Origin: Nitrososphaerota archaeon
GTDB lineage: Archaea > Thermoproteota > Nitrososphaeria > Nitrososphaerales > Gagatemarchaeaceae
Length of the DNA: 64,000 bases
Assembly (NCBI GenBank): GCA_027887005.1
Contig: JAPCJI010000003.1
Span: 124,001 to 188,000 of the forward strand
Direction of reading: 5' to 3'
The notes below the pieces were generated by a model that did not search any database, had not been told where the DNA came from, and saw only the letters and a program-made list of their open reading frames with translations. The stretch's first letter is position 1; each line of letters starts with the position of its first letter. Both the position numbers and the translations under genes were made by a program. Positions 5,515 through 13,571 of this stretch are shown in pieces.

Positions 5515-6495
5515 GTGGCCAATCTTGTAACCTACCTCGTTCGTAGGATTCTGTTCATGATTCCGGTGTTCTTGGCCGTGAGTATTTTCACATTCCTGAT
5601 CACCAACTCCGCGGGCGACCCTATCCAGCTAATCAGACTGCAGTTCAAGTCAATGCCACCAGCCCTGCTTGCTTCACTCAGGACGTTCTATCACCTAGAC
5701 CAACCCCTCTTCGTAAGGTACTTCCTCTGGCTCCAGCAGTTCCTCGTGGGGAATCTCGGATTCTCTCCTCAGTCCGGGCAGCCGGTCGCTACCAAGATAC
5801 TCCCATGGATCGGCACCACTCTTGAGTTGCAGATATCCGCGCTCCTACTCAGCCTCGGGATCGGCGTTCCCGTGGGGATCTACTCCGCGAAGCATCAATA
5901 CCAAAAGTCTGACGTTGCTGTCACCACAACTGCAATCTTCGGAGTCTCTATGCCAACCTTCTGGCTTGGTATCATGGGGATTCTGGTATTCTCGTTGTAC
6001 CTGCACTGGATTCCCGCCAGTGGAGCTGTAGATTTCTACAATACCGGGGCGTGGTGGGACAGCAACATCTACCTCAACTATGCGGTCCACGCGTTGCTCC
6101 CTGTACTCGTTTTGACCTTCGTCTCCATTGCCACGATTGTGAGGCTGGTGAGGGCCAACATGCTGGAGGTGCTCAGGCAGGACTACATCCTCGCCGCACG
6201 GGCTAGCGGGATCAAGGAGAGGACAATCACATACCGGTATGCCCTGAAGAACGCGATAACGCCGATCGTTACGATAGTGGGTCTTGCCTTCGGATTCGCC
6301 CTCGCCGGGGCTCCTGGACTTGAAACGACCTTCTCCTGGCCGGGCCTAGGATACGCGTTCGTGCAGGCCGCATTAGTTCTTGACCTCCCAACGGTCCAGG
6401 CTATCACTATGATAATCACCATCCTGGTGCTCATCGCAAACCTCGGGACTGATCTGGCGTACGCCTACCTTGATCCAAGAGTGAGACTCAGCTGA
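5515..6495 (+). CDS. Peptide ABC transporter permease, DppB/OppB type
   Basis: 326 residues, the usual length for the family. N-terminal YLVRRILFMIPVFLAVSIFTF is the conserved first helix of DppB/OppB permeases, and about six membrane helices follow. The EAA-type cytoplasmic loop that contacts the ATPases is visible in YILAARASGIKERTITYRYAL (about residues 224-244). It pairs with the DppC-type subunit encoded next to form the membrane channel for di- or oligopeptides. GTG start at 5515 has a TATA box at 5481-5490. First gene of a five-gene set: permease, permease, ATPase, ATPase, binding protein. Confidence 0.92.
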   Translation: MANLVTYLVRRILFMIPVFLAVSIFTFLITNSAGDPIQLIRLQFKSMPPALLASLRTFYHLDQPLFVRYFLWLQQFLVGNLGFSPQSGQPVATKILPWIGTTLELQISALLLSLGIGVPVGIYSAKHQYQKSDVAVTTTAIFGVSMPTFWLGIMGILVFSLYLHWIPASGAVDFYNTGAWWDSNIYLNYAVHALLPVLVLTFVSIATIVRLVRANMLEVLRQDYILAARASGIKERTITYRYALKNAITPIVTIVGLAFGFALAGAPGLETTFSWPGLGYAFVQAALVLDLPTVQAITMIITILVLIANLGTDLAYAYLDPRVRLS

Positions 6496-6527
6496 GCGAC
6501 AAACCGCCCGTTTCAAAAGCTCCTGCC

Positions 6528-7430
6528 ATGGCCGCGAAGAAAAACCCCTCTCGCAGGGCCGCGGGACAATGGGCGGTCGCATTCCGGAGGTTCAGACGGA
6601 ATAAGGCCGGGCTTGCTGGAATGGCCATAGTCGGGTTCTTCTTCTTCCTCATGTTCTTCGGCTACTTCTTCGCCCCCTACCCTGTCAGGAGTTTTCAGTG
6701 CCTCTATCAGGGGTGCGCAGGAATAGGACCTTTCGTGAACTGGGCTCACCCGCTCGGAACTGAGATCTCCGGCATTGACGTCTACAGCGAGATTCTCCAC
6801 GGAACTCCGAACGACCTGTTTGTCGGAATAGTGGCCACCGCGATTGCCGTCGGCATCGGGATCGTAATCGGGAGCATCGCGGGCTACGTCAGAGGTGCCT
6901 CCAGCGCGTTGCTCCTTGGCTTCACCCAGGTATTCCTGGTGCTGCCTGTCCTGGTGATAATCATCCTGTTTGCCAGGATCTTCGTCCTGGAGGTGGCGGC
7001 TGGGTTCGGACTTCTCCTCATCACGCTGATTCTCGGCGTGTTCTCCTGGCCGACTATCGCCCTTGTTTCGAGAGGGGAGATACTCCGCATCAGGGAACTC
7101 GAGTTCGTCCAGGCAGCGAAGGCGCTGGGGGCGAGCAATAGCAGGATTCTGTTCAGGCACATCGTCCCCAACATGCTCTCGCCCATAATCGTCATTTCGA
7201 GCCTCCTGATCGCCGGGAACATACTCACCGAGGTCGTCATCAGCTTCCTCGGCTTCGGGGATCCGAACACGTCAACCTGGGGCCTCCTGCTGCAGGAGGG
7301 TTTCGGGTACATCAGGACCCAATGGTGGGTTTCCCTCTTTCCGGGCCTCGCCGTTGTTTTCTGCGTGCTTGGATTCAACCTCCTCGGGGACGGGCTTTCT
7401 GATGCGCTGAACCCGAGGCTCAGAGAGTAG
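6528..7430 (+). CDS. Peptide ABC transporter permease, DppC/OppC type
   Basis: 300 residues. The N-terminus has the basic RRFRRNKAGLAGMAIVGF seen in DppC/OppC proteins before their first helix, then a periplasmic-side segment with HPLGTEISGIDVYSEILHG matching the family's HxLGTDxxGRDVxSR region. The EAA loop is ELEFVQAAKALGASNSRILFRHI (from about residue 189). ATG at 6528 follows the first permease gene by 32 bases. Partner of the upstream permease. Confidence 0.92.
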   Translation: MAAKKNPSRRAAGQWAVAFRRFRRNKAGLAGMAIVGFFFFLMFFGYFFAPYPVRSFQCLYQGCAGIGPFVNWAHPLGTEISGIDVYSEILHGTPNDLFVGIVATAIAVGIGIVIGSIAGYVRGASSALLLGFTQVFLVLPVLVIIILFARIFVLEVAAGFGLLLITLILGVFSWPTIALVSRGEILRIRELEFVQAAKALGASNSRILFRHIVPNMLSPIIVISSLLIAGNILTEVVISFLGFGDPNTSTWGLLLQEGFGYIRTQWWVSLFPGLAVVFCVLGFNLLGDGLSDALNPRLRE

Positions 7431-7435
7431 TCTCC

Positions 7436-8428
7436 ATGGGCCAGGAACTCCTCAAGGTCGAGGACCTCCACACCTACTTCTTCACTGAGGCGGGCGTCGT
7501 GAAGGCTGTCGACGGCGTCTCTTTCGTTCTGGAAGAGAATCAACCGCTGGGCTTGGTGGGTGAGTCGGGGTCGGGAAAGTCGGTTACAGCCCAGTCCATA
7601 CTTGGGATCGTGCCCCGCCCAGGCAAGATCATGTCGGGCAGGATACTTCTGAAGGGAGAGGACTTGCTCAAGAAGAAGGAAGGCGAAATGAGAAAACTGA
7701 GAGGGGGCAGCATAGGCGTCGTATTCCAGGACCCCAACTCCTCTCTCAACCCTCTATTCACCGTCGGAAAGCAGCTTACCGACGTCATACGAATGCACTT
7801 CGAGATCCGACAACCGGAGGCGGACGAGAAAGCCATAGGCCTCCTCAAGCTGGTAAGGATTGCAGAGCCTGAAGCTAGGATGACGCAGTACCCCCACGAA
7901 TTGAGCGGCGGCATGAGGCAAAGGATAGCCATTGCCCGGGCGCTCGCCGGCGAGCCAGACATCCTCGTCGCGGACGAGCCCACCACGAACCTTGACGTGA
8001 CAATCCAGGCTCAGGTCTTGGAGCTGCTGAAGACCCTCCAGAAGGAGCTGAACATGGCGCTTCTCATGATCACCCATGACATGGGCATCGTCGCAGAGAT
8101 GACACAGAAGGTCGTGGTCCTCTACGCTGGAAGGGTCGCAGAGGTCGCCTCGACAAACGACATCTTCGCGGTACCAAAGCACCCGTACACTTCAGCTTTG
8201 CTCAGGGCAGTCCCGCGGATTGACAGGAAGGAGACACTAGTCTCGATTCCAGGGAGCATACCAAACCTGATCGACCCCCCCAGCGGCTGCCGCTTCCATC
8301 CGAGGTGCCGGTACATGACCCAGGTATGCGCGGACCAGATACCTCCGCTAGAGAACATCTTCGGCGACCGGAAGGTCTCCTGCCATCACTGGAAGGAACT
8401 GGAGCTGGAGAAGGAAGTGGCGCTCTAG
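7436..8428 (+). CDS. Peptide ABC transporter ATPase, DppD/OppD type
   Basis: 330 residues. Walker A GESGSGKS (about residue 42), Q-loop in VVFQDPNSSLNPL, signature LSGGMRQR, Walker B ILVADEPTTNLD and the H-loop His in MITHDMG are all intact. The C-terminal extension with CRFHPRC...C is the oligopeptide/dipeptide transporter C-terminal domain. It starts 5 bases after the DppC-type gene and its stop abuts the next ATPase gene directly, so translation is tightly coupled. It forms a heterodimer with the following ATPase to power uptake. Confidence 0.93.
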   Translation: MGQELLKVEDLHTYFFTEAGVVKAVDGVSFVLEENQPLGLVGESGSGKSVTAQSILGIVPRPGKIMSGRILLKGEDLLKKKEGEMRKLRGGSIGVVFQDPNSSLNPLFTVGKQLTDVIRMHFEIRQPEADEKAIGLLKLVRIAEPEARMTQYPHELSGGMRQRIAIARALAGEPDILVADEPTTNLDVTIQAQVLELLKTLQKELNMALLMITHDMGIVAEMTQKVVVLYAGRVAEVASTNDIFAVPKHPYTSALLRAVPRIDRKETLVSIPGSIPNLIDPPSGCRFHPRCRYMTQVCADQIPPLENIFGDRKVSCHHWKELELEKEVAL

Positions 8429-9424
8429 ATGGCCGACCCCCTCCTGAAGGTCGAAAACCTTGTGAAGTACTTCCCAGTCTATGAGAGGGGAATCCTCCTC
8501 AAGAAGAAGGTGGGCGACGTCCACGCGGTCGACGGGGTAACTTTCGAGATAGGCAAGGCCGAAACACTCGGGCTGGTCGGAGAAAGCGGCTGCGGCAAGA
8601 CCACGACTGGGAAGGTGGTCCTCGACCTCGAGCCACCTGACTCGGGGAAGGTCTACTTCGAAGGAAAGGACGTCTTCGAGACTCTCACCAAGGGGAAGAT
8701 GGAAGACAGGAAGTACCTTCGACGGAACATGCAGATGGTCTTCCAGAACCCCTACGGGTCGCTCGACCCAAGGATGACCGTCTACGACATCATATCCGAG
8801 CCCTTCGTGATCCACAAGAACATTCCGCGCTCCGACTGGACTGAGAGGGTTTACAAGCTGCTCCTCATGGTGGGGCTCGAGGAGTACCACGCGGAGCGGT
8901 ATCCCCACGAATTCTCGGGCGGACAGAGGCAGAGGATTTCAATCGCCCGGGCCCTGGCGACGAGCCCCAAGTTCATAGTCGCTGACGAGCCTGTCTCCTC
9001 CCTCGATGTTTCCGTCAGGGCACAGGTCCTGAACCTGCTCGAGGAGCTCCAGAAGAAAGAAGGAATCTCCTTCCTCTACATCTCGCACGACCTGAGCTCG
9101 GTCAGGCAGGTAAGCCAACATGTAGCGGTAATGTACTTGGGAGAGATATTCGAGTACTCCCCGACCGGTGAGCTCTTCGCGAAGCCCCTGAACCCATACA
9201 GCATCGCGCTGCTCTCCGCGGTGCCCGTCCCCGATCCGAAGAGGAACATCAACCGCATCATCCTGCCTGGCGATGTGCCCAGCCCTGTCAACCCCCCAGG
9301 AGGATGCCGCTTCCACCCAAGATGCCCCTACGCCACGGATATTTGCAAGACTGACAAGCCTGCCCTGAGGGAGCTGAGACCAGACCATCTCGTCGCATGC
9401 CACCACGCCGAGAAGTTTCTGTAG
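8429..9424 (+). CDS. Peptide ABC transporter ATPase, DppF/OppF type
   Basis: 331 residues. Walker A GESGCGKT, Q-loop MVFQNPYGSLDPRMTV (typical DppF/OppF), signature FSGGQRQR, Walker B FIVADEPVSSLDVS, H-loop YISHDLS, and the C-terminal GGCRFHPRCPYATDIC oligopeptide domain are present. The ATG immediately follows the stop of the DppD-type gene. It is the second ATPase of the heterodimer. The binding-protein gene follows with its own apparent promoter. Confidence 0.93.
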   Translation: MADPLLKVENLVKYFPVYERGILLKKKVGDVHAVDGVTFEIGKAETLGLVGESGCGKTTTGKVVLDLEPPDSGKVYFEGKDVFETLTKGKMEDRKYLRRNMQMVFQNPYGSLDPRMTVYDIISEPFVIHKNIPRSDWTERVYKLLLMVGLEEYHAERYPHEFSGGQRQRISIARALATSPKFIVADEPVSSLDVSVRAQVLNLLEELQKKEGISFLYISHDLSSVRQVSQHVAVMYLGEIFEYSPTGELFAKPLNPYSIALLSAVPVPDPKRNINRIILPGDVPSPVNPPGGCRFHPRCPYATDICKTDKPALRELRPDHLVACHHAEKFL

Positions 9425-9440
9425 ATGAAGTGGTAACAAT

Positions 9441-9450
9441 CATTATAAAC
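9441..9450 (+). promoter_or_regulatory. TATA box and ribosome site deciding the binding-protein start
   Basis: CATTATAAAC at 9441-9450 sits just after the DppF-type stop codon, and GGTGA at 9469-9473 lies seven bases before TTG 9481. Together they argue that translation of the binding protein starts at 9481, not at the in-frame ATG at 9397 inside the ATPase gene, and that this gene can be transcribed separately, as expected for a protein needed in excess over the transporter. Confidence 0.5.
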
Positions 9451-9480
9451 CCTGAAGGGCCGTTACACGGTGAAAATACT

Positions 9481-12198
9481 TTGCACTCTTCTACTATTGA
9501 AGAGACAGCTACAGGTGCAGCTTTAGCACTTATAGGATTCGTCTTAATCTTCTCAGCAGTACCAATCCCCGTCCAGGCGGCAACGTCTAACGGGTACCTA
9601 TTCACCATGACCTTGGTAGCGCCAACATCCAACCCTGCAAGAAGGCAGTGGGCAGCAATCATCCAGAACAACCTGAGATCTCTTGGCATCGATGCCCGGT
9701 TGATCTATACCAGCTTCGGAACCATGTCTGGACTGTCGTTCGGGTGTAGTGCCTCAAACTGCGGCAAGACTTACGACAACGGCGGCTTCGACGCGGTCTT
9801 CGTCGGATTCGGCGGAGGAACGCCTCTGCCTGACTTCGGAACCCAGAACGTTGTAGACTACAGAAGTCTCAACAACGCGGACCTGTCGCCAATCGGTGCC
9901 AACTTCGAGCAGTACAGGAACGCTACCTTCAACGCGCTTGCATCTCAGTACAACGCCGAGTTCAACGCCGCGGCGAGGGTACCCATCGCACAGAAGATGG
10001 TTGCCATCGTAGCGCAGGACAGACCCACACTTCCAATCTACTACCCAGTGGACACATATGGAGTCGCTAACTACATCAATCCCTGGGGCAACAACAACTC
10101 CGAGTGTTCGTGTACCGTCACCCACGACTTCCAGCACTGGAAGCTGACGGGCGGTCACACAGCGATTAACGTTGGCGAGACGGGCGACATCAGCTCCGTC
10201 AACCAATGGGTAACAGCAGCTGCGAACACCTTCTACGATGCGTATCTCTACAACACACAAACGGTCCCCCTGGAGGAGCTTGACGGAAGGACGCTCGCCT
10301 ACTTCAACAGCCTCGCGACTTCGATCACGGGCTCCAGCGACCACCTCACATGGACTGTGAACTTCCTTGCTCACAACTTCCAGGACGGCGTCCCGGTAAC
10401 GGCCAACGACTACTTGTTCAGCACCATGGGCGGCATCATCAATGATGTCGGCTACGTGTCAGCAGGTACTCTACAGGGCTTATTGGGCAACTTTGGAGGC
10501 GGCGCATGCAATTGCAGCGGAGTCACCTTCAAGTATTCCAACGGGACTTCTGACTACGTCTGGAACGGCGCCTACTCCCACGGCGCGGCCCCAACGGGCT
10601 TCGTGTCGACGTCAGTATGGACTGCCACTAGCGCAACATCATTCACCTTCACCCTCTCGAACGCCTACCTCTTCACTGACCCGGTCATAACGGGCATCAG
10701 CGCTGAACCCATGCACATATTCGAGTCCATCCCGTTCCTCTCATGGGCGACGAGCCCATTCGCGACGGTCCAAAATACACCATACGTGTATCACTGGTCA
10801 ACCTCGACATACGGTGGCAATGGAACCGCTACGGCCTACGGGCCAATCGGTGACGGACCATACTACTACCACGGCTACGACTCGGTCTCCGAGACTGGGA
10901 CGCTAGTCAAGTGGAGCGGTTATTGGAACGCCACGGGCCTCCAAAGCCTTGGACAGTTCAACGCCCAGGTGATCCACATCGTCCATGACACAAACAAGGA
11001 TGCGGCCCTAGCTGACTTCGCTAGCGGCAAGCTCAACTTCCTCGATTCGAACTATGGAATCGTGCCCGCCGACTACTCAGTACTAGCCGCGAACGGTGGC
11101 CATGCAACCGAAAGGTCCAGCCCGTCAGCAGGACGGCAAGACTTCTCGTTGAATGATAACCACCCGATCTACGGCACCGGCACTGCAACGCCCAATGGGG
11201 TAAAGGACCCGGCGCACGCTCAACAGTACGCCATAGATGTGAGAACGGCATTCAGCCACGCGATTCCAAGACAGTACATCATCAACAATCTCCAACAGGG
11301 TCAAGGAACGCCAGCCATCACTGAGTTCTGTACCTGCTTCGCCTTCGCTTACACGCCTGGCATAACGGTCGACACGTTCGACCTTTCGTTGTCGGCGCAG
11401 TTCTTGGCGGCGGCAGGATACAACAATGGTGCGACTAGTTCCGTCACGATTCCACCTCCAACAGCAGTCACATGCGGTTCCTCCCCCGGCAGCGGAGGTG
11501 GGGCGGTGACCGTACCTTCATTCATCTCTGGTAACTCCCTAACTTTGACTGGAACGTTCGGTGTCACTCAGGCAGTCGGCGGAAGCTATCCTGGGTGGTA
11601 CGCAACGTTGCAGCAGAGCACAGACGGTGGAACAACTTGGCAACCAGTCCTGTTGACAGCAGCCACCAACGCAGGGTACTACACCTTCACATACACACCA
11701 ACGGTCTCTGGCCAGGTATGGTACAGGGCCTTCTTCACGGGCATCCCAAGCAATAACGCCCTCGCGGGCACTGGCGCTACGAGCCCAGCCGCCGCAGAGG
11801 CATACACGGCTCCTCAGGCCCCCAGCAACGGGGAAGCACTACTCAACGTCACTGACACCAGGTACAGCGCGGTTACAGCCATTACTGTCGGGTCGCTATC
11901 GCAAGTGATTGCGTCGGCACTCAGCAGCTTGTCGGCAACTGACGCGGTCGCGGTATACAACGCGGCATGCGGAGTTGCGGCATCGACCACAAGTTCGATT
12001 AATGGTCTCGCCACGAGTACCAACAGCGCCATAACCGCACTTCAGACGAGTGCGGCATCCAAGACTGACCTTCAGGCAGCGGTCAACACAATCAACGGCA
12101 ACATCAACAACGTATCCTATATCGCATACGCAGCACTAGCTGTAGCAATAATTCTGGGTCTCATAGCTATATTTATGGGCCGACGGAAGCCTAGCTAG
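9481..12198 (+). CDS. Membrane-anchored peptide-binding protein (SBP_bac_5), apparently circularly permuted
   Basis: 905 residues from TTG 9481. A Sec signal (residues ~11-33, ending VPIPVQA) is followed by ~34-220, which reads like the C-terminal lobe of DppA/OppA proteins: NGYLFTMTLVAPTSNPARR, then IIQNNLRSLGIDARLI, then DRPTLPIYYPVDTYG. From ~225 comes what is normally the N-terminal lobe: INVGETGDISSVNQW, LTWTVNFLAHNFQDGVPVTA (~295-305), then the VRTAFSHAIPRQYIINNL region (~586) and AQFLAAAGY (~643). In standard family members the last block leads into the block found here at residue 34. After ~665 there is an Ig-like beta domain, a helical Ala/Ser/Thr-rich stalk and a C-terminal membrane anchor (AALAVAIILGLIAIFMG) with a basic end. 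It should capture peptides outside the cell for the adjacent transporter. The ORF is open back to 9397. Confidence 0.88.
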   Translation: MHSSTIEETATGAALALIGFVLIFSAVPIPVQAATSNGYLFTMTLVAPTSNPARRQWAAIIQNNLRSLGIDARLIYTSFGTMSGLSFGCSASNCGKTYDNGGFDAVFVGFGGGTPLPDFGTQNVVDYRSLNNADLSPIGANFEQYRNATFNALASQYNAEFNAAARVPIAQKMVAIVAQDRPTLPIYYPVDTYGVANYINPWGNNNSECSCTVTHDFQHWKLTGGHTAINVGETGDISSVNQWVTAAANTFYDAYLYNTQTVPLEELDGRTLAYFNSLATSITGSSDHLTWTVNFLAHNFQDGVPVTANDYLFSTMGGIINDVGYVSAGTLQGLLGNFGGGACNCSGVTFKYSNGTSDYVWNGAYSHGAAPTGFVSTSVWTATSATSFTFTLSNAYLFTDPVITGISAEPMHIFESIPFLSWATSPFATVQNTPYVYHWSTSTYGGNGTATAYGPIGDGPYYYHGYDSVSETGTLVKWSGYWNATGLQSLGQFNAQVIHIVHDTNKDAALADFASGKLNFLDSNYGIVPADYSVLAANGGHATERSSPSAGRQDFSLNDNHPIYGTGTATPNGVKDPAHAQQYAIDVRTAFSHAIPRQYIINNLQQGQGTPAITEFCTCFAFAYTPGITVDTFDLSLSAQFLAAAGYNNGATSSVTIPPPTAVTCGSSPGSGGGAVTVPSFISGNSLTLTGTFGVTQAVGGSYPGWYATLQQSTDGGTTWQPVLLTAATNAGYYTFTYTPTVSGQVWYRAFFTGIPSNNALAGTGATSPAAAEAYTAPQAPSNGEALLNVTDTRYSAVTAITVGSLSQVIASALSSLSATDAVAVYNAACGVAASTTSSINGLATSTNSAITALQTSAASKTDLQAAVNTINGNINNVSYIAYAALAVAIILGLIAIFMGRRKPS

Positions 12199-12650: not shown

Positions 12651-13571
12651 TTGCAGAAGAGACGGAAGCGGCCGAGGAGTGCGCTGAAGCGTTCCTTCTT
12701 GGTTACGTTCACGATCCTGATTATTCTACTCATCGGAGCCTACGCCTACGTCTATGAGAACTCAATACCGGTGAAACACATCCCTCCTTCCGTCCCGCCC
12801 TACGAGGCGGTCTGGGCGAAGTATGTGCCCAACGATGTGATCCTTTTCAGCTTCCAGAACTTCACCTCCATCCACCAGCTCAACTCGTCCCTCCCCTTTT
12901 TCAGCACAATCCTGCATCTTACTAACCCCAAGGTGACGCTGTCCACCAGGAACGTGAACCTCTTCGTCGCCATGGAGTTCAGCGTCCCCAACGCGTCGGT
13001 CGACATCGCCTTCCTCAGCCCATCGTCATTCGCTTCGGTCCAGGAGAACTTCTCGAGCATTACGAGCTACGGCACTCTGGTGGGCAACGACACCTTGTAT
13101 AATGTCCTCGACACTGCCACAGGCAAGCCCGTCCTCGGCTGGCTAGCGCTAATCCCTGGCGATCGCGCCGTTGGGTTCGCACCCGGTTCGGGAGAGGCAC
13201 TGACGGCGATGACTGACGCAGTGCGGGTCCCCACCGAGAACAACGCTTCGGTCATCGGGCTTCCAGACATCAGGCAGATGCTTTACGTTGCCGGGGGGGC
13301 CGGTGGGCACATCGGCCTGGGCGTCGCCAGCTTCTCAGGGGTGATATCCACCTCCTCCAAGACCATGACTGTGGTCGACGGGGCAGGGCCCCGACTGAAC
13401 GTCTCAAGGATCGTCGAATTCCCCGACTACCCCACCGCCCGCGGCCAGTTCTCGACCGTCATGCATACTTACAAGGCAGCCACGAACTTCATAGTGTTCG
13501 ACGCCTTCGTGAGAGCGTCCCAGCTCGACCCCATGAGCAAGCTAGGCGGGGACTACAGGCTCGTACAGTAG
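12651..13571 (+). CDS. Hypothetical membrane-anchored extracellular protein
   Basis: 306 residues from TTG 12651. A very basic N-terminus (KRRKRPRSALKR) and one membrane helix (residues ~16-35, LVTFTILIILLIGAYAYVY) are followed by a large extracytoplasmic domain with many N-x-S/T sequons (NFTS, NSS, NAS, NFSS, NDT, NNAS, NVS). No Cys and no enzyme motif are visible. The spacing from the TATA-like CTTATAAAAC (12613-12622) fits a nearly leaderless mRNA. Function unknown; a surface or envelope protein is the reasonable inference. Confidence 0.55.
   Translation: MQKRRKRPRSALKRSFLVTFTILIILLIGAYAYVYENSIPVKHIPPSVPPYEAVWAKYVPNDVILFSFQNFTSIHQLNSSLPFFSTILHLTNPKVTLSTRNVNLFVAMEFSVPNASVDIAFLSPSSFASVQENFSSITSYGTLVGNDTLYNVLDTATGKPVLGWLALIPGDRAVGFAPGSGEALTAMTDAVRVPTENNASVIGLPDIRQMLYVAGGAGGHIGLGVASFSGVISTSSKTMTVVDGAGPRLNVSRIVEFPDYPTARGQFSTVMHTYKAATNFIVFDAFVRASQLDPMSKLGGDYRLVQ

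Follow-up and report, generated by a model that had tools for sequence, protein, structure and literature searches.

An archaeal gene with order-swapped halves of one SBP_bac_5 domain, very probably encoding a circularly permuted receptor of a DppBCDF-type ABC importer

A gene in the window, the whole 64,000-nucleotide stretch of Nitrososphaerota archaeon DNA analysed here, encodes two halves that computation shows to be complementary parts of one SBP_bac_5 domain in swapped order. We hold with high confidence that this gene encodes the substrate-binding protein (SBP) of a DppBCDF-type ABC importer and that the SBP_bac_5 (cluster C) fold of this protein is a natural circular permutant. Apart from its rotated chain it is most likely an ordinary receptor of an ABC importer; a peptide-like solute, the putative ligand, would be captured between its lobes and then passed to DppBC. 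The gene lies in a single intact open frame without internal stop (9397-12198, plus strand), and the TTG at 9481 is its conserved start codon. Upstream of this codon the frame stays open to 9397 and further, and that stretch is without conservation in relatives. The parts of the gene and its neighbours are listed in Table 1.

Table 1. Features of the permuted receptor gene and the adjoining transporter genes (window coordinates)
Feature	Position	Strand	Basis
Permease, DppB homologue	5515..6495	+	ORF; homologues beside permuted gene in relatives
Permease, DppC homologue	6528..7430	+	ORF; homologues beside permuted gene in relatives
ATPase, DppD homologue	7436..8428	+	ORF; homologues beside permuted gene in relatives
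ATPase, DppF homologue	8429..9424	+	ORF; homologues beside permuted gene in relatives
TTG start and signal peptide (LHSSTIEETATGAALALIGFVLIFSAVPIPVQA)	9481..9579	+	Hydrophobic N-terminus kept in relatives; L007 begins at same residue
Native C-terminal part of SBP_bac_5, now first: second half of lobe II and return to lobe I	9580..10158	+	PF00496 288-360; canonical HMM 369-511, i-Evalue 3.9e-15
Joint: native C-terminus (HWKLTG) to native N-terminus (AINVGETG)	10132..10161	+	Same joint in aligned relatives
Native N-terminal part of SBP_bac_5, now second: lobe I and the beginning of lobe II	10159..11421	+	Closes on AQFLAAAGY; PF00496 5-288; canonical HMM 61-131 and 305-376
Ig-like beta-sandwich past new C-terminus	11467..11748	+	AF2 strands at residues 663-756
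Helical stalk	11845..12108	+	Long AF2 helices, low confidence; length differs among relatives
C-terminal transmembrane helix and basic tail (..GRRKPS)	12109..12195	+	Hydrophobic segment kept in relatives

The swapped order is visible in the family profile itself. PF00496 (SBP_bac_5) matches the receptor at E 7.6e-28 (98.1 bits against a cut-off of 32.4), with profile positions 5-288 aligned to residues 305-686, and the Pfam scan of the protein gave no other family. The genome search placed profile positions 288-360 (G000:C3:133601-133852) upstream of 5-288 (134309-135454) in one frame, so that the domain is not collinear with its family. A canonical HMM of 534 positions, which we built from 27 proteins, matched the window protein in the same rotated order, with 369-511 at residues 79-241, 61-131 at residues 287-356 (i-Evalue 1.1e-5) and 305-376 at residues 627-698 (i-Evalue 1e-10). 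Profile positions 132-285, the middle of the N-part, are hardly matched in the window protein and are matched in relatives. None of 200 shuffled cores matched this HMM at E<=10, and 71 other frames, fragments among them, were collinear with it in the order test. After in silico rotation of the protein at the junction, the lobe II pieces, which had scored 35.5 and 49.3 bits, fused into one match of 100.5 bits over profile positions 286-511, and the total score rose from 109.1 to 122.6 bits. Clearly homologous relatives without the permutation exist, namely three other SBP_bac_5 proteins of the source genome (L001-L003), all in normal order, and bacterial relatives. A sequence-only reading of this DNA had proposed that the C-lobe precedes the N-lobe and that the native ends are rejoined with new ends elsewhere. 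The swapped matches and the rotation control bear out this order, the new ends were located at AAAGY|NGYLF, and the motifs that it quoted are all in the frame (NGYLFTMTL at 9589, AINVGETG at 10162 and AQFLAAAGY at 11395).

That reading had also named one fold made of both halves as a point that would support it. AF2, run with 33 sequences that are every one in permuted order, gave pLDDT 74.9 and pTM 0.64 for the whole protein, in which the tail and linkers are weak, and pLDDT 83.8 and pTM 0.85 for the core only (9589-11451). The core pTM of 0.85 indicates a confident relative placement of the two halves, and they are predicted to pack into one bilobed fold as a single unit. The nearest PDB folds in Foldseek are cluster C SBPs, AppA (1xoc) first, with TM-scores near 0.5 because Foldseek aligns in sequence order only. 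A profile of the relatives matched AppA 1xoc residues 356-505 at the part now first in the chain (E 1.6e-9). PDB searches by single sequence with each half alone were too weak and returned spurious antibody matches. In the AF2 model, the new ends sit between a helix and the next strand, a loop that, from what is known of DppA and OppA, would belong to lobe II and point away from the cleft. Since the new ends would face away from the cleft, a signal peptide and a stalk could join the chain at this point and leave hinge and cleft undisturbed. The Ig-like beta-sandwich is kept in the closest relatives and missing in compact members such as L088.

Partner permeases and ATPases for the receptor (DppBCDF) are present at 5515-9424, and also in relatives. 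Homologues of dppB, dppC, dppD and dppF all adjoin the permuted gene in 11 of the 12 archaeal loci with long flanks, and the twelfth (L036, a 6.8-kb contig) has DppF only. All four are likewise found at L050, L124 and L125, and L126 is without only a separate DppF match. Transporter genes are divergently oriented at L035, L037, L039-L041 and L044. At the Natronorubrum locus L123, none of the four homologues stands beside the permuted gene and transporter genes are absent from the 13.6 kb examined; this locus (L123:3040-8465, on a plasmid of Natronorubrum bangense) carries two tandem permuted SBP genes with a PAP2-family phosphatase gene after each. Furthermore, a protein of 306 aa that has a hydrophobic helix at its N-terminus and matches nothing in Pfam (window 12651-13571, plus strand) is encoded beside the permuted SBP gene in many relatives and is possibly a transporter accessory.

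The block order was also sought in relatives, as the sequence-only reading had suggested, and the same order was found. The window's group, here called type A, comprises about 45 distinct proteins, all cut sharply near canonical HMM positions 367|373 into complementary pieces that do not overlap. Full-length members with this order occur in the same genus (G026, G023, G016), family (G034, G033, G151, G132) and order (G052, G070), and in G004, a one-contig genome rated 100% complete. In a phylum sample of 398 genomes, 29 had a match at 1e-20, some of these matches being broken into two stretches, and the order test on the fetched loci gives the permuted form, apart from fragments. The permuted form is a minority in the wider phylum, in which the majority of SBP_bac_5 matches are in normal order. 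Named archaeal records with the permuted form belong to Thaumarchaeota, Bathyarchaeota, Methanomethylicota and Marsarchaeota; they came from an alignment query, while a contig scan with a single protein gave no match. The identical cut was found in a gammaproteobacterial MAG (L050), with no close relative among 398 genomes searched around this form, and the type A cut is also present in proteins encoded by complete plasmids of Salipiger, Neorhizobium, Haladaptatus and Natronorubrum. In the tree, the Thermoproteota and alphaproteobacterial type A members form one clade (SH-aLRT 100). One type A protein of G162 is represented by two partial frames, each on a different contig (L086, L097), a split gene or a misassembly.

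Type A is one of several rotations. The order test separates frames sharply into types A, B and C, with the type B cut at about 231-245|230-234 (n=23) and the type C cut at about 265-288|276-298 (n=4, L157-L160), and a later sample added type D with a cut near 448|450 (L171, L177). Pfam coordinates concur, putting the type A cut near 281-288 and the type B cut near 146. The type B loci (L035:9725-12127 on the minus strand, L098-L117 and L162-L164) are widespread in Thermoproteota, and their proteins are anchored at the N- or the C-terminus, L114 having a dockerin-like end. The type C proteins carry a membrane helix at the N-terminus and, ahead of the receptor, an additional stretch that is apparently beta-rich. 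The type D protein L171 and the type B protein L162 are 57.5% identical along the rotated length and differ by rotation; raw BLASTP aligns them in two blocks of swapped order, one pairing 79-320 with 543-784 and the other 322-734 with 116-534. What had looked like a remnant of the old N-terminus in L162 and L163 proved to be a membrane helix and a Thr-rich linker. In a tree of 104 proteins, for which rows were rotated to canonical order and type D was left out, the permutation labels require 5 changes. A single type B clade was rejected (AU p = 0.0003), and a single type A clade including the haloarchaeal proteins was not (p = 0.38). These sequence comparisons point to at least five permutation events, namely one of type A, two of type B and one each of types C and D, of which D may derive from B or the reverse. 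SBP_bac_5 is probably a natural hot spot of permutation, cut near 235, 280, 370 and 450 of 534 in no fewer than five events, for the most part in Thermoproteota, and archaea would in effect sample attachment sites for signal, stalk and anchor.

The sequence-only reading had placed a stalk and a membrane anchor on the new C-terminus, and these stand. Its further suggestion, that the anchor thereby lies on the other end of the receptor relative to the transporter, is supported no further than a changed site of attachment. A C-terminal hydrophobic helix was found in 37 of 44 proteins of type A and 16 of 23 of type B, and in none of the 4 of type C; types C and D, and B in part, have a membrane helix at the N-terminus in its place. 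What seemed to be an excess of C-terminal anchors among the permuted proteins was weakened, because the canonical set had been picked by best score and long unpermuted frames are often anchored. Among unpermuted Thermoproteota frames fetched for length, 13 of 18 have a C-terminal stalk and membrane helix, so the C-terminal anchor is an ordinary archaeal design. The stalk, membrane helix and basic tail of unpermuted archaeal SBPs are of the same kind, with the stalk following the native C-terminus. The change would therefore be confined to the attachment site, and the stalk and transmembrane helix would tether the window receptor to the membrane via lobe II, not lobe I.

Two explanations without a single permuted fold were weighed. 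The window belongs to a 26-contig draft genome, and two adjacent SBP genes could in principle have been misjoined in a metagenome bin by tandem collapse; the identical order and cut recur in a genome of one contig, in numerous independent assemblies and in circular plasmids, which makes such an artefact next to impossible, and we reject it on these complete records. Two SBP fragments could also have been fused and work as separate half-domains, which would suit the low confidence of the AF2 linkers at model residues 204-213 and 246-250, close to the joint. Against this stand pieces that are complementary and give a continuous match once rotated, the joint core pTM of 0.85 and one coherent clade in the tree, and we consider it very improbable. 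The permuted chain may form a domain-swapped dimer rather than fold in cis.

As to why the chain was rotated, an adaptation of anchoring, in which the tether moved to lobe II leaves cleft closure or docking unstrained, would agree with the frequent C-terminal helix of types A and B, and the same idea has been stated for another permuted receptor, TpMglB-2 (PMC4990184). Unpermuted archaeal SBPs often bear the same anchor, however, and the type A proteins of bacteria and haloarchaea have no C-terminal anchor, which rules out anchoring as the general reason why these proteins are permuted; with the N-terminal helices of types C, D and some B also speaking against it, this explanation seems unlikely to us. 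We incline towards a neutral origin, with the new ends put to use afterwards. A gene would most likely have been duplicated in tandem and fused and then have lost its outer ends, giving an equally functional permuted receptor that was inherited and transferred. That the rotation itself has no function is, on balance, the somewhat better bet, given four cut points, several kinds of anchoring with no common functional link and a pair about 57% identical that differs by rotation, although the long-lasting conservation and the recurrent origin within a single phylum suggest that permutation is favoured or permitted there by something. A duplication-fusion intermediate was not seen.

Like the window receptor, the cluster C SBPs DppA, OppA, AppA and NikA belong to the PF00496 family and have the same transporter partners, and they are its nearest solved folds. 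In contrast to them, its blocks are rotated at a helix-strand loop of lobe II, its native ends are joined, and signal and anchor are at the new ends. The closest precedent that we found is TpMglB-2 (Tp0684) from Treponema pallidum, a naturally permuted "cluster Bc" glucose-binding ABC receptor that is conserved in a clade and often tethered, with tethering proposed by its authors as a possible reason (PMC4990184). Unlike the window receptor, TpMglB-2 has a cluster B (type I) sugar-binding fold and another cut, and occurs in spirochaetes and Gram-positive bacteria; the matches in family scans and PDB searches were SBP_bac_5 relatives, and no homology to cluster B or TpMglB-2 was detected. Engineered permuted halves of ribose-binding protein, as cited in PMC10601554, are likewise SBP chains that fold, but they are laboratory constructs and of cluster B. 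The Treponema case is the one published natural permutation of an importer receptor that was found, and for the peptide-binding family the literature searched, which covered few subscription papers, gave no report. Repeated re-cutting, which affected several loops, and close homologues that differ by rotation make SBP_bac_5 a natural experiment on how permutations arise, and it bears also on whether the tether point matters to ABC import.

Annotation by single-domain profiles splits or mis-measures permuted SBP_bac_5 proteins, and in NCBIfam the permuted forms reach the cut-off of no model except the Tat signal. A further long frame of about 2000 residues (L165:3926-10000, genome G211) has an unpermuted SBP_bac_5 domain first, followed by some 1400 other residues.
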